This document shows, piece by piece, positions 23,142-53,823 of a DNA stretch of 64,000 bases (positions within the stretch are counted from its first letter, which is position 1; each line of letters starts with the position of its first letter). This DNA comes from an uncultured Methanomicrobiales archaeon. Its GTDB lineage: Archaea; Halobacteriota; Methanomicrobia; Methanomicrobiales; Methanospirillaceae. A program made the translations under genes and the position numbers. Under the pieces are notes generated by a model that made no database searches, was not told where the DNA came from, and worked only from the letters and a program-made list of their open reading frames with translations. The stretch lies in contig CAILCG010000018.1 of NCBI GenBank assembly GCA_903832665.1, positions 1 to 64,000 on the forward strand, given 5' to 3'.

Positions 23142-24243
23142 TCATATCTTAATCAGATCATAAGCGCGGTTGCCCATACCAACTTCTTCTGCGTACTGGC
23201 ATTGACGGAATCCATCAGTCTGCGCATGGACACCTTTGAACTTGTCCTCTCCTTTGTGGTGATGGGTTGTGAGAAGTGAGTCCGTATATCCCTGCTGCTG
23301 GTTGACAAGATCAAAACTCGCGGTATCAATGGCTACGGGATCGAGCGAGGCCAGGATTCCGATATCCGGGACAATCGGTGCATCACTGAACGGGAAACAA
23401 TCGCAATCGGGAGTTATGCGAATTAAAAAGTTCATATAACCTATCTTCTTCTCTTTTCCTTTCGTGGCCCCATACGCATATTCAACCATCCGTTCCATGA
23501 ATTCCGGTATTTCCGTTACCCAGTCGATGTCAATGGCATGCGCCGTACAGACATGCATGCACTCAAAACAACCAATACACAGTTCTTTGTCTATGACCGA
23601 AGTGCCTTTTTCAATGCAGATTGCGGCTTTCGGGCAAACCTCAATACAGGATCCACAACCTGTGCATTTTTCAGCAATGGAAAACGGGCGGGCATTATGT
23701 TGGGCACGTTTTCCTTCCGGAGGCGCACATCCCATAGCAAGATTTTTGAGAGCACCTCCGAAACCCGATACGATATGGCCCTTAAAATGACTCAGGACAA
23801 TCATACTGTCAGCTGCAGCAATATCTCCGGCTACCGATACCGTACTGAAATGTTTTTTCCCGATAGGAACATGGGTGATATTTTTACCGGACAGACCATC
23901 GGCTATAATGACAGGAGCTCCGGTCACAGCATAATCGAATCCGTGCAGAATAGCAGTGGTGATATGCTCAAACGCATTTGATCTGCTGCCCAGATAGAGG
24001 GTATTGGTATCAGTGAGAAACGGTAGTGCCCCACACTCTTTTACCTTCTCGACAACCTGGCGAATATAGACCGGACTGATAAATCTTCCCTATCTCTCCG
24101 AAATGGAGTTTAAGCGCAGTCTTATCATGGGGAGTGATGAGTTCTCCAAACCCGGCACGTTCAAAGAGCCTGCGTACTTTCACTGTTGTGCATTCCTGAT
24201 CGGAACTCGCTATGAGGCTTGCAAAATATACCGGACTTTTCAT
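23142..24243 (-). pseudogene. DUF362 ferredoxin-domain protein, frameshifted
   Basis: The N-terminal part (ATG 24243 with ggagaa upstream) reads MKSPVYFASLIAS ... LKLHFGEIGKI and then loses the frame; in the next frame the protein continues as ISPVYIRQVVEKVKECGA, then PFLTDTNTLYLGSRSNAFEH, and on to the C-terminus. The break is at the AAA run at 24081-24083, consistent with one inserted base. The C-terminal part has SHFKGHIVSGFGGALKNLAM and two 4Fe-4S motifs (CTGCGSCIEVCP and CIGCFECMHVC). DUF362 proteins of this size are common in methanogens; function unknown. Whether the gene is dead or a sequencing error cannot be told; the rest is well conserved. Confidence 0.8.
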
Positions 24244-26345: not shown

Positions 26346-26804
26346 TTATCTGCCAATTTTCTTTCTCTCGGCTTCAATATCGAGAATAATTTCGAGTTCA
26401 AGAGATTTTCCATATGCTTCCTGCGCCTCATCACTCCGGTTTAATTCGTCAAGGCAGACTCCTTTGATGTACCAGGCGGTCACATCATTCCCATTCAGGG
26501 ACGCGGCCCTCGTACTTGCATACAAACCATCTTCAAATTTCTCAAGATTATAATATGCCAGGCCTTTCTTTGACCACGCCGGGGCGTAATTCTGGTCAAG
26601 GGCAATTGCCTTGTCACAGTCAGCCAGGGCTTCTTGACTCTTCCCGGTATCAATCAGTACTGATGCCCGAAGATACCAGGCTTCAGGATTATTCGGATCG
26701 AGAGAGAGCGCCTTGTTGTAATAAGCCAGAGCCTCCTTGTACTTGGTCCTCTTGGCGTAGGAATGACCTTTTTTTAAGAATTCTGCTGCTTCCTTTACGG
26801 TCAT
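26346..26804 (-). CDS. TPR-repeat protein (152 aa)
   Basis: The whole protein consists of three to four tetratricopeptide repeats: AKRTKYKEALAYYNKALSLD, EAWYLRASVLIDTGKSQEAL, YAPAWSKKGLAYYNLEKFED and AWYIKGVCLDELNRSDEAQ. It is probably a scaffold for protein contacts. The ATG at 26804 overlaps (ATGA) the distal stop of the upstream gene, but only if that gene is read through its amber codon, so the pair looks translationally coupled. Confidence 0.85.
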   Translation of the reverse strand: MTVKEAAEFLKKGHSYAKRTKYKEALAYYNKALSLDPNNPEAWYLRASVLIDTGKSQEALADCDKAIALDQNYAPAWSKKGLAYYNLEKFEDGLYASTRAASLNGNDVTAWYIKGVCLDELNRSDEAQEAYGKSLELEIILDIEAERKKIGR

Positions 26805-27877
26805 GTCGTATCACCCCAAGAATCGGCGATCAGATCGCCAAAGATCCTCTTTAACGCTTTCTTCTCGTACTCTTCTTTATGCTCGTGTGCGAGGAGAAGA
26901 TGTTTGGGTTCTTCCCAGACCTACCAGTCTTTCATGGTCATATAGGAAAGGAGTTGATTGGTGAGATTGAATCCAATCTTGTAGAGATCATAAAAATAAT
27001 CGAGTGTGGGTTCTGCACTCCAGTTTACCTGAGACAGGGGTCTCTCAATTATCTCCAGCATATTATCCCCAAAAACCTTGGACTGGTACCATGCCGTGTG
27101 AGTCCACCTCGTAGTAAGAATCTCCTTTACTTCAAGGTGATTAAATTTTTTCATCTGGGGAATATTGAGAACAGGCATCAGTTCATCGGCCGGCAATGTT
27201 TTTGCAAGGAACATGTCACGGGAATAAAACATTGCTTTGTTCAGGACAAAATACCGGCGGGGAATAATCTCTTCCTGCTCCATCATCTCGTCCATATCAT
27301 TCTTGCTCTCTTTCATCACATGATAGAGCTGCGTTTTCCGGATCTTCGGCATCCGGTGATACACACTAGCATTGATTATCGTATTCCAGGGGAGTTCGTT
27401 TACATCTTCGTTGAAATGGGAGAACAGGATGAACAACAACTGGATGAGCTTCTGGACCGGGAGTTTATCTTTTTTGTTTGCCTCATCTTTTAAGGCGTCC
27501 AGGTAGATCTGGCGTAAACCCCGGTAAACGGACTCTTCAGTATATGAGCAGACTTTATACTCGCCTTTTTTTGAGGCAGCTCCTTTGATCATCAGGTTCG
27601 TGCAGTGCTTCGCAATAATGAAATCCTTAAGAAGCCCGACGTATTGTGCGGGAAAAATAATTACGTTCCTCTCAATATCATAGGTGTAAATATCGACCAG
27701 CGTCCCACCCGGTTCTGCATCCGGCTGGCGGAGGAGCGAAATCTCAGTATCCAGAAGTTCCTCGGGGGTATTGAGAAAACGGCGTATGGGTTTTGATAAA
27801 GGCATTTCAGTTTTCATGGGCGGACACCATAATTCACGAGAGTTATCCCGAATGGTCTTTATTAGTTCACTAGGCAC
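26801..27877 (-). CDS. Conserved-looking hypothetical protein with an in-frame TAG codon
   Basis: The frame runs from ATG 27877 for 318 codons to a TAG at 26923-26921, then continues in the same frame for 39 sense codons (VWEEPKHLLLAHEHKEEYEKK then ALKRIFGDLIADSWGDTT, in two parts) to a TGA at 26803-26801 that overlaps the TPR gene start. The extension is protein-like (amphipathic, charged helix) and ends in a classic ATGA coupling, so it was surely part of the gene. The TAG may be a nonsense mutation, a base error, or a recoded amber codon. The main part is soluble, rich in charged and aromatic residues, with no known motif (one possible helical bundle near DMDEMMEQEEIIPRRYF). Family not recognised. 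Confidence 0.7.
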
Positions 27878-28863: not shown

Positions 28864-31297
28864 TTACCTCCCTTTCTTCGCCTCGGGTATATACTTTGTG
28901 AGCAGGAGCGAGAGCGTTACTACCGTAACCGAACTTGCCGCCATGGCAAGAGCTGCCAGCTCGGGCCGGGACGTAATACCAAACGACGGATACAATACAC
29001 CGGCTGCTACCGGTATGAGCGCCATATTGTAGGCAAATGCCCAGAAGATATTGCCTTTGATCCTCCCCATCACCTTCTGGGAGAGCTGGACTGCTGCTAC
29101 AGAATCGAGGAGATCATCCTTCATCAGGACAATATCCCCACTCTCAATGGCCACATCCGTTCCGCTGCCAATTGCAATACCTACGTCTGCTTGGGCAAGG
29201 GCCGGGGCATCATTGATTCCGTCCCCGACAAATGCAACAACTTCTCCCGAGGCCTGGAGTCTTTTTACTTCAACTTCTTTATCCTGCGGCAATACCTCGG
29301 CAATCACCCGGTCGATACCAATCTGGCGGGCGATCGCATCTGCAGTCCGCTGGTTGTCCCCGGTGATCATAACGATCCGGACACCCATTTTTTTGAACTC
29401 CGTTATTGCATCCCGGGTAGTTTCCTTGAGGGTATCTGCAATGGCAATTACCCCGGCCATCTGACCCCCGGCGGCAACAAGCACCGCGGTCTTACCCTCC
29501 AGTTCAAATGCGGAGATCCGTTCTTCCAGTTCTTTGGGAATTACCACTCGATTTTCCTCAAGAAACGCCCGATTGCCTACGAGCACCGTTTCTGAGAGAA
29601 TGGTTGCAGCAACTCCTTTCCCCCCAAATGTGTCGAACTGCTCTGCCGGTTCAATCTTCACCAGTCGGTTTTCTGCAGATCTTACAACCGCTTCTGCCAG
29701 CGGGTGCTGAGAATTCTTCTCGACACTGGCAGTAAGGGAGAGAAGGGTCTCTTCAGAAATCCCGACGGCGATGAGATCGGTCACCTCCGGTTTTCCTTTG
29801 GTCAGGGTCCCGGTCTTATCGAAGATGACTGTCGTCACCTTCTCGGCAACTTCCAGTGCCTCCCCGTTCCGGATCAGGATACCAAGCTGAGCTCCCCGGC
29901 CAACTCCCACGGTGATCGCGGTTGGGGTTGCAAGCCCGAGTGCACAGGGGCATGCCACTACCAGAATTGAGATGAGTGCCGTAAGGGCAAAGAGGAGCGT
30001 TGAGCCCAGCAGGAAGAACCACGCCACAAAAGTGAAGGCTGCAACAATCAGCACAACCGGGATAAAGTAGGTGACCGCGACATCAGCGATCCGCTGCACC
30101 GGGGGCTTGGAACCCTGGGCATCTTCCACCATCTGGATGATCTGGGGAAGCATCGTCTCCTTGCCAACTTTTGTCGCCCGGATGGTGAGCACACTATTGG
30201 TATTGAGTGGCCCCCCTACAACACGGCTTCCCGGTGACTTCAGGGGGGGGGACGGGTTCGCCCGTGATCATCGCCTCATTGACATAACTTTCACCCGTCA
30301 CTACCTCCCCATCAACGGGTACTTTGGCGCCGGGCTTTACGATGACCTGATCGCCAACAGAGACATCTTCAACCGAAACCTCTACTTCCTGCCCGTCGCG
30401 AATCAGAATGGCAGTCTTGACCCGGAGACCGGCAAGTTTCTTGATAGCTTCTGAGGTCCGGCCTTTGGCCCTCCCTTCCAAAAAGCGTCCGAGCATCAGG
30501 AAGGCAGCCAGCATGATCGCGGTATCATAGAACATGAACTCATGGGTGAACACGATGCCAAACGTGCCCAGTACACTCGAAACAAAAGCAACGCCGGTAC
30601 CCATTGCGTACATGACATCCATTGAAAGCATACGATGAGAGAGCGATATCCACGCGGCCCGGAATATCGGATAGGCAACAAAGGCAAAGACCGGTGTTGA
30701 GATCACGAGCATCACGTAGCCGAGCTGCTGCATACTGAGGGGCAGTGGAATCCACATCGCAATCATGAGCGGGATACTCACGGCAAAACCAACCACGAAC
30801 CGGATGAACTTGGCGTGGAGGTCCTTATCGCGGGCGATCTTCTCTGCCTCTTCGCTCACTTCTCCGGATATTCCGAGGTACTGGTATCCAGCCTCCTCAA
30901 TCGCCTTCTTCATGCCGTCTATGCCTGTGAGTGAGGGATTATAGGTAACATATGCTTTTTCGGTCCCGAGATTAACCGTTGCAGAAACAATACCGGGAAG
31001 TTCCCGGAGAGCGGTCTCGATCGTTTCGACACAGGTAGCGCACATCATACCACCAACTTTTATCGTGACCTGACTGTTCACAACCTCGTACCCCGCATCT
31101 TTCACCGCTTTTTCGAGAATGGCAAGGGAGACTTTGGTTGGGTCAAACTCAACATGGGCTGTATCAGTGCCAAAATTCACCTGTGCTTTTGTTACGTCAC
31201 TAAGACCAGACAACGATTCTTCAATGTTCACCGCACAGGTAGCGCAGCTCATTCCCGAAATTTTTATCTCAGCCTTCTTCGTCTCCGGTTCAGCCAT
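28864..31297 (-). pseudogene. copA: Copper-transporting P-type ATPase, split by a homopolymer frameshift
   Basis: The first part (ATG 31297) has two heavy-metal-binding domains (GMSCATC and GGMMCATC), the A-domain and six membrane spans up to MITGEPVP. A run of nine C (30251-30243 on the minus strand) then shifts the frame; in the next frame the protein resumes PLKSPGSRVVGGPLNTNS and carries CPCALGLATP (copper site), DKTGTLTKG, SQHPLAEAV and GDGINDAPAL up to MAASSVTVVTLSLLL. All signature residues of a P1B-1 Cu+ exporter are present. With eight C residues the frame would be continuous, so this is a homopolymer indel, either sequencing error or slippage. The gene would export Cu+ from the cytosol. 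Confidence 0.88.
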
Positions 31298-37196: not shown

Positions 37197-39001
37197 TTGT
37201 CAACGAAGAATATGCCAGATAACGTGATCCGGTTTTTGCGACAAACGATATCACGTACCGATATCGTGCGATTCTGTGTGATCACGTCACTTGCAATCTG
37301 TTGCACCCTCATCACCGCACTCTCATTCTCCCGCTCCATTGATTTCATAATTACCAGCTCTTCTTCATTCCCATCATTTATGCAGCGTTTTTTTATCCAA
37401 AACGAGGCTTGCTCGTCGCATTCATGTGCGGAATTGCATACCAGGCGGTTGGTTATTACTACCGCTATCCGGATTATGCTGCACTGACGGTGGTCACTTC
37501 AGAAGCAGTTCTCTTTGTGATTATTGCCTCCATGATCTCCTACTTTATTGAAAAGATACGTCTGGGAGAAACCCGGTACCGGTCAATATTCGAGCACTCT
37601 CAATTGGGCATAGCCCTGTTTGGACGTACTGATTTTATCATTAGTCAGACCAATACGCGATTTCTCTCAATGCTTGACTATTCCCCGGAAGAGGTCATCG
37701 GAAAACCATTCTTATCACTTTGCCTGACATCGAGGGACAAAGAAAGATTCCTCGAAAAAATCGGCAAGAGCGATGCAACAGAAAATTTCGAAACACGCCT
37801 GGCAACGAAATCGGGTGCGGGGTACTGGGTAAACCTCTCGTGGAATCGTGTTGATGATGCCACGATCAGTTGCACTGCAGTAAATATCAATGGCAGGAAG
37901 ATTGCAGAGAAACTCAACAATGACAATATGATGAAGTACAGCCAGTTGACCGAGAATTCCCCCAATGGGATTCTCCTTATTCAACATGATTCCATTCGGT
38001 TTTCCAATCCATCCTTTTCGGGACTTACCGGGTACGGTAAAAACGAGCTTGCAGGTAAAAACCTGGCCGATTTTGTGGATCCCCGGGACAAGGATGAATT
38101 TATTGAATTTGCAAAACATTGGTCGGAACATAAACCGGTCCACGGTGAGAAAGAGATCCGGTTCATGACTAAAAACGGAGATGTACGACTGGCTGCACTT
38201 ACGGCAAATTCAATTCTTCATCTCGAAAAACCGGCAACAATGATCAACATCGTCGACATATCAGAAAAACAGCGTCTTTCTGATAAGATTCATGAGGACA
38301 ACGAGAGGCGGAGGGGGATTATCGTCACGGTCGCCCATGAATTGCGAACACCCCTTCAGCCGATTCTTGGGTATCTCAATCTGCTCATTTCCGATCCCGA
38401 AGGCTTCGGTATTGTCGAGGATACAAAAAAGATTCTTGAACGCTGCCTCGTCAGTGTCGATCGGGAGCGCCAGATCATCAACCAGATGCTTGACCTTTCG
38501 GTGCTTGACAGTGGTAAACTCCAGTTGAGCTATTCGACCTTCCAGCTTGAACCGCTCGTGAAAAGCCTTCTGGATACCGGGGGATATCTTACAAAAGCAG
38601 AAGTGACCGTAGATATTCCCGAATCAGTAACAATGACTGCGGATAAAGATCGCATCTACAGTGTGATCGACTCCCTGCTTTCAAATGCAGTGAGTTATTC
38701 CAAACCCCCGCGTAAAATCAATATCCATTACAGTTCTGAAACCGATGACCTGTATCATCACATTTCCGTCAAGGATAATGGAATAGGTATTGAACAAAAT
38801 GCCATCTCATCAATTTTCGAACCATTCCAACTGGCAGATTCGGCAAAATTGTCCCGCCGGTACGATAGAATCGGGCTGTCACTCTCCATTGCAAAAAAAG
38901 TTGTCCAGATGCATAGCGGAGATATTTCTGTAAACAGCGCGGTGAATACCGGCAGTACCTTCACCATTAATCTTCCCAAGGAGATGAAAAATGCCTCATA
39001 A
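37197..39001 (+). pseudogene. Membrane sensor histidine kinase with two PAS domains, frameshifted
   Basis: The frame from TTG 37197 (aggaaa upstream) starts the first membrane helix (FCVITSLAICCTLITALSFS) and loses the frame at about 37353-37356; in the next frame it continues QLFFIPIIYAAFFYPKRGLL, with further helices. A single missing base explains it. Then follow PAS 1 (FEHSQLGIALFGRTD), PAS 2 (NSPNGILLIQHDSIRF), the phospho-acceptor His in VAHELRTPLQPILGYL, the N box (IDSLLSNAVSYSKP), G1 (DNGIGIEQNA) and a slightly altered G2 (RIGLSLSIA). It should signal to the overlapping response regulator. Membrane-bound; signal unknown. Confidence 0.8.
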
Positions 39002-51656: not shown

Positions 51657-53823
51657 TCAGCCCTTCACACGGAACTTTTCCTTAGGAACAATGATCTCGA
51701 ACCGGGCACCTTTCCCAGGAGTACCATTTTCCGTTATCGTGATACCGGTAAATCCCAGAATTTCACGGACCAGGAACATTCCCATCCCGGTACCAGAACC
51801 CTGCCTGAACTCAAAGATCCGATGCTTCTGTTCAACCGGAATTCCTATTCCGTTATCCTGATAGATGAGATGGAGGGACTCTTCGTCCTTGAGGGTAAAA
51901 AGCCGGATCTCTGTCAGATGGCTACCCCCGTGCCGGAGGGAATTTTCCAGAAGATTGTAAAAGACACGGGGCAGGAGCGGATCTGCATACAATTCAAAAT
52001 CACCGAGTTCGGCATGAATATTAACGTTATGAGCCGGTAAAAGGGTGAGGGCATATTCGAACGAGGAAGCAGCATGCTGCCATTTTGGGGATATGATGCC
52101 CAGGTCCTGCAATCGCCTGATGAAACCGATCTGGTTCCTTATTAATTCGACCGATCCGATGGTGTTATCGAAAAACGCCTGCATAGCACTTTCAGTACTT
52201 TTAAGCTGCGCCCGTTCAAGGGAATTCATAATAATTGAGAGATGATCGAGAATGTCGCTCCGGGTAATACTGAAGAGAAGATCCAATTTCAGGCTGGCTG
52301 TCTGCTCGGTCAAATCTTCCGCCATACCAAGAATGTAACGCGGATTTCCTGAAGAATCAGTGATCAGGACTTTTACAGCGTGAATGATTCGTTCATCACC
52401 GAGTTTGCGGGTAATTTTTTTATGATATCTGAAAATCCCATCAACTAAAAATCCCATCAACTAAGGCTGCATGATCTTCTGTTTCAACAACACGTGCCGT
52501 AGTTTCAGAATATATTTCCCGGGCGGTCTTTCCAATTACGTCATCTGCAACCCGCTCGAATATCCGTTCGCTGGTGGTATTCCAGAAGATATACTTGCCA
52601 TCATCTGAATTTTTGACGAATACTGCAACCGGAAGGTGATTGATCATCTCCTGCTGAAACGCTTTTTCATCCTGTAATTCGCCAAGAGCTGTTTTTAATG
52701 ATATCACCATCGTGTTGATACTCTGCTCCAGTCCCTGAAATTCTGCCACACGAGTGGGCGAGATCTTCCAGTCAAGATCACCGTCAGAAATCCTGTCAAC
52801 ATCCCGGACAATCCCGGCAATAGGTTTTGACAGGTAACGGGAAAGGATAAAGGCTGCACAACCTCCGATAATGAGAGCCACAATCGCGACAAACAGGTGG
52901 AACTGACCATGCCCGCTGGCATTTTTTTCCAGCATCGCATCATTGTAAGTGATCTCAACAATCCGGCTCAAATCGGAACCATACTCTTTGTTCTTCAGGT
53001 CAATGAAGAGATATTTGACGGACTGACCTGTACCAGGTTCGTTTATCGTGAGATCCCCGCGTTGGTGCAGTACTTTTTCCAACATGCTCCGAGTGGATGG
53101 GTCCACTACGTAGGAAGTATTATCTACGAGTTCTCCCATGGCATTGAAGATCCGGACTCGTTCGATGTACTGGTTAGCTGAAGCGATATGTTCAACCGCT
53201 TTTTTGTACTGGATAAATGAACGATCTCCCCGGATTGAAGGATTGGTAAATCCCAGTTCAAGTACATAACGATGATCCGGGGGGGGCATATAGGCAAATT
53301 TTCGCAGCTGACCGGTGCCATGCTGTTCTTCGACCATGCGATCCGGGAAAAAACCTGTCGAGTTCCTGATCGTTGTCAGGTAGGTAAAAAAATAGGGGAC
53401 TTTTTTAAAATCCAGTCCCCGCTCGGGTTCAAAAGTCGTGTATTCGATTACTCCCGATTCATTGATCAGGTAAATATCATACGAGTCGCCCAGGGTTTTT
53501 TTAATTGCGGCGAGATTCATTGTCGAGGGATTACTCCCGGAACGAACGTACTCAACAAGAATTTCATTCAATCCCCTGCGCATCTGGTCGTTTAAGCTGC
53601 TGTCATACAGGGAATAGCTTTCATCTGTCAGCCGAATCATGGCAATGATATCCTGTTCAGTCTGCCGCTGGAGATGCTGCGAATTGCGTTCAAACATATT
53701 TTTTGTATTGTAGTCATTAACGGCAACAAGTCCGACGACAATTACCACAAGGACTATCATGGCAACAAGGAGATACAGGGAAAAGGACCGGTTTTTTCCT
53801 TTAAGGATCCCTTTGTCAGCCAT
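51657..53823 (-). pseudogene. Membrane sensor kinase (dCache-HAMP-PAS-ATPase) split by a 16-bp tandem duplication
   Basis: From ATG 53823 the first part has TM 1 (FSLYLLVAMIVLVVIVVGLVA), a large extracytoplasmic Cache-like sensor (DSSLNDQMRRGLNEIL ... YDIYLINESGVIEYTT), TM 2 (LFVAIVALIIGGCAAFI), HAMP (PIAGIVRDVDRISDGDLDWK) and PAS (INHLPVAVFVKNSDDGKYIFW). It stops at ALVDGIFS. A perfect 16-bp repeat there shifts the frame; without one copy the frame runs into RYHKKITRKLGDERIIHAV and continues with the dimerisation/His region (DHLSIIMNSLERAQL) and the ATPase N and G boxes (FYNLLENSLRHGG, DNGIGIPVEQ, GTGMGMFLV). Senses an external signal; regulator partner not adjacent. Confidence 0.85.
52433..52464 (+). 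repeat. Perfect 16-bp tandem duplication in the sensor-kinase gene
   Basis: The unit aaatcccatcaactaa occurs twice in a row (52433-52448 and 52449-52464). 16 is not a multiple of 3, so it destroys the kinase frame; removal of one copy restores it. A perfect tandem copy suggests a recent slippage event. Confidence 0.85.

Follow-up and report, generated by a model that had tools for sequence, protein, structure and literature searches.

An in-frame TAG in a conserved Methanoregula-group gene: very probably a recent nonsense mutation or a draft consensus error, and not a recoded codon

An uncharacterised, conserved gene in a single Methanoregula-type genome carries an in-frame TAG that, from comparison with relatives, is very probably either a recent nonsense mutation or a consensus error in the draft, the two taken jointly, with no recoding. 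The window (the whole stretch of DNA analysed, 64,000 nucleotides) differs at a conserved Tyr codon, where a single base of TAC reads G to give TAG. If the base is real, translation would end after 298 of 338 codons; if it is not, the G would be a consensus error of the assembly. The TAG is unlikely to be decoded as an amino acid because the genome is without the known decoding genes.

Results

An earlier note on this DNA described a minus-strand TAG followed in frame by 39 sense codons and a TGA, the last overlapping the start of a TPR ORF as ATGA, and both the sequence and its translation confirm this arrangement (Table 1; the TPR ATG lies at 26804-26802). The start of the upstream gene was revised from GTG at 27877 to ATG at 27817-27815, which is probably the true start because relatives begin at a matching M-K-T-E-M and GGTG sits just upstream. 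With this start, the intact protein has 338 amino acids and the TAG is codon 299. An open frame of 39 codons is expected by chance with a probability of about 0.14 at the given base composition, so the open extension alone is weak evidence and comparison with relatives was needed. The ATGA overlap, offered by the earlier note as evidence that the extension was part of the gene, recurs in close relatives (G007, G021, G001, G004, G011, G014 and G034).

Table 1. Coordinates of the gene with the in-frame TAG, the adjoining TPR gene and two neighboring lesions in the window.
Feature	Position	Strand	Remarks
Codons 1-298, uncharacterised Methanoregula-group gene	26924..27817	-	Relatives align from the same Met
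In-frame TAG, codon 299	26921..26923	-	TAC in G007, G001, G014, G021 and G034; Tyr or Phe in other aligned relatives
39 post-TAG sense codons	26804..26920	-	Conserved in relatives, including invariant IFGDL; predicted ordered strand and two helices
Native TGA stop	26801..26803	-	ATGA overlap with the TPR gene start (26804-26801)
TPR-repeat gene	26346..26804	-	Own Shine-Dalgarno-like GGGGTGAT 5 nt before ATG
5-bp deletion, ~24070, frameshift in DUF362/4Fe-4S gene	24058..24083	-	Intact in 7 relatives
+1 insertion, ~30240, run of nine C, copper P-type ATPase	30230..30255	-	Intact in 8 relatives

The gene was found in 48 of 100 related genomes, counting the source genome. Most of these belong to the same genus and family, and the matches that carry a name are Methanoregula and other Methanomicrobiales. 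The gene is conserved across most surveyed genomes of Methanoregula and in some of the family. In none of the 47 other genomes carrying the gene was an internal TAG found. Twenty-seven relatives from the Methanoregula group were aligned, at 44-94% protein identity, and all run through the TAG position in frame, with Tyr (TAC or TAT) in the nearer relatives and Phe (TTT or TTC) in the rest. In G007, the nearest relative at 94% protein identity, the codon is TAC, which differs from TAG by one base, and DNA alignment with G007 and with the other TAC-bearing relatives named in Table 1 shows a single C>G. These homologues thus carry a sense codon one substitution from a stop, and since the nearest relatives have TAC, the window differs from them by one C>G change.

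Because the 39 codons are conserved in relatives and read straight through, the extension is part of the gene. The earlier note had proposed this, and the alignment of 27 relatives bears it out; the outcome that it named as refuting, all homologues ending before the extension, was not seen. Residues invariant among the aligned relatives in this part are W301, E318, A321 and IFGDL at 325-329. Against G007, the post-TAG codons show 3 amino-acid and 19 silent changes, which agrees with the 16 and 107 counted ahead of the TAG. The lesion is therefore recent or unreal, since the 39 codons show no relaxed constraint. The TPR gene was confirmed to adjoin in five relatives (G007, G021, G001, G014 and G034), and the order CopA, (DUF2179), the gene, TPR, ferritin and DUF362 is held in most relatives examined. 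Ten of 38 genomes of the same genus, several of them incomplete, lacked a match to the gene, and G015 (one contig, 94% complete) gave two short matches and nothing more.

The intact reading frame (window 26804-27817) represents a conserved Methanoregula-group family of about 338 amino acids with a W-[YF]-x-W motif and a C-terminal IFGDL. No Pfam or NCBIfam family exceeded its cut-off for this protein, no sequence relatives were found in the PDB or in viral contigs, and comparison of the predicted structure (pLDDT 80) with the PDB and viral models gave no convincing fold match. Matches to Sld5/GINS (Pfam, E 0.03; Sld5 is matched by just 2 of the 28 members) and to PylC (NCBIfam, E 0.004) were far below cut-off and were dismissed as chance. 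The position beside iron and copper genes offers a lead, and only a lead, to function.

Residues 301-330 were predicted with a mean pLDDT of 85-96 in blocks. If the TAG is real, the truncated product would be without the C-terminal strand, the last two helices and IFGDL. Loss of a predicted strand, two helices and an invariant motif makes loss of function likely, and the truncated product would probably be non-functional if the base is real. The TPR gene is probably still translated; it need not rely on coupling, because it has its own Shine-Dalgarno-like motif.

Two further lesions, both indels, lie within 3.5 kb either side of the TAG (Table 1), so that three lesions fall within 6.2 kb. At the 5-bp deletion, relatives carry five extra bases, TGACG in most. 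On contig C18, on which the window lies, 7 frameshifts relative to G034 were counted in 76.6 kb aligned, vs 1 in roughly 131 kb from the rest of the sampled genome (p ~0.005), and the reverse comparison gave 2 frameshifts in 202 kb of G034 (p ~0.002); these rates are approximate, as antisense ORFs make up part of the aligned length. Such ORFs also brought noise into a mechanical count of internal stops. The lesion argument was restricted to frameshifts and to lesions absent from at least 7 relatives, and both stop usage and lesion rates were derived from 0.89 Mb of the source genome. The lesions on the contig vary in kind, from single bases and a 5-bp deletion to an apparent 16-bp tandem duplication and a 43-bp deletion, and such a mixture is compatible either with local decay of genes or with poor resolution of the contig.

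The contig is rich in lesions as a whole. At 52441-52458 of the window, a 16-base insertion resembling a tandem duplication splits a HAMP/PAS histidine kinase, and a stretch that appears to be coding has lost one base at 37349 by comparison with four relatives. Past the window, frameshifting differences from G034 were seen at about 64466, 72074 and 116749 (-1, +1 and the 43-bp deletion).

Pyrrolysine is used by some other methanogens (PMC2933860, PMC4153887), and the source assembly (2.88 Mb in 28 contigs, 98.8% complete, 2% contamination) was searched for its genes. The C-terminal PylS model (TIGR02367) reached at best 27.9 bits in the source genome against a cut-off of 178, and PylB at best 28 bits against 348, both generic matches; the N-terminal PylS model (TIGR03912), PylD and the PylC-like N-terminal domain had no match there. 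In the control panel, TIGR03912 exceeded its cut-off only in Methanosarcina acetivorans, and the C-terminal PylS, PylB and PylD models were each over cut-off in one control genome, taken to be M. acetivorans. Across 60 genomes from the genus and order, PylB never exceeded its cut-off. Among 46 tRNA places (Rfam model, with anticodons assigned by ARAGORN for all 46), none had the CTA anticodon of tRNA-Pyl or a suppressor. The look-up of pylT and pylS suggested by the earlier note thus yielded a PylS match far below cut-off and no CTA-anticodon tRNA. TAG ends 80 of 669 long ORFs (~12%) in the sampled part of the source genome, and because this share is close to that of G034 (62 of 651), TAG is considered an ordinary stop in the source genome.

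Discussion

Nonsense mutation, error and recoding had all been named by the earlier note; its list held the answer, and recoding is the part that fails, there being no pyl set and no CTA tRNA. A real nonsense mutation, which would make the gene a young pseudogene or a strain variant in a region where several genes decay, has about an even chance of being correct. The cluster of lesions includes types such as the 5-bp deletion, the apparent tandem duplication and the 43-bp deletion, and the gene looks dispensable from its lack of a match in part of the genus. However, conservation of the gene is strong apart from the TAG, and the codons past it show no decay.

The same lack of relaxed constraint would be expected if the contig, a draft that was probably assembled from a metagenome, had a wrong consensus G while the organism itself had TAC like its relatives. 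We give this possibility slightly less than an even chance. It is favored by the three lesions of differing kinds lying so close together, each absent from 7-8 relatives, by the enrichment of frameshifts on the contig over the rest of the genome, and by the number of contigs and level of contamination in the assembly. Several of the lesions on the contig resemble real mutations more than base-calling errors, though, and the C>G change lies outside any homopolymer.

Functional readthrough, or suppression of the TAG with insertion of Tyr, is unlikely. One base change would restore a Tyr codon, and functional readthrough would also leave the post-TAG codons constrained, as they are. However, the TAG is unique to the source genome, and a suppressor tRNA and a readthrough-promoting RNA structure were both rejected, as no CTA-anticodon tRNA was found and the RNA from the TAG onward is not more structured than shuffled sequences (z = -0.57). 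Reading of the TAG by a near-cognate tRNA-Tyr or an undetected suppressor, which would give short and full-length forms of the protein, is slightly more doubtful still. Insertion of pyrrolysine has the use of this residue by some other methanogens as the sole point in its favor, and with PylS, PylB, PylC and PylD all short of cut-off, no tRNA-Pyl, Tyr or Phe in relatives and PylB below cut-off in all 60 genomes of the genus and order, it is extremely improbable and is rejected within the limits set by a genome 98.8% complete.

In methanogens an in-frame TAG brings pyrrolysine to mind, but in this case comparison with relatives and a search of the genome indicate an ordinary lesion, and caution is warranted. 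Automatic annotation pipelines will list several genes as split on this contig, which is flagged accordingly.

The likeness to methanogen genes decoded with pyrrolysine (methylamine methyltransferases such as mtmB) is an in-frame TAG in a methanogen gene. Unlike those genes, the present one is not a methylamine methyltransferase, its TAG is not conserved at codon 299 in any aligned relative, and its genome shows neither pyl genes nor tRNA-Pyl. With ordinary pseudogenes arising by nonsense mutation or assembly error it shares one substitution to a stop where relatives keep a sense codon, conserved sequence on both sides of the stop, and other disabling lesions nearby. We saw no feature that distinguishes it from them.
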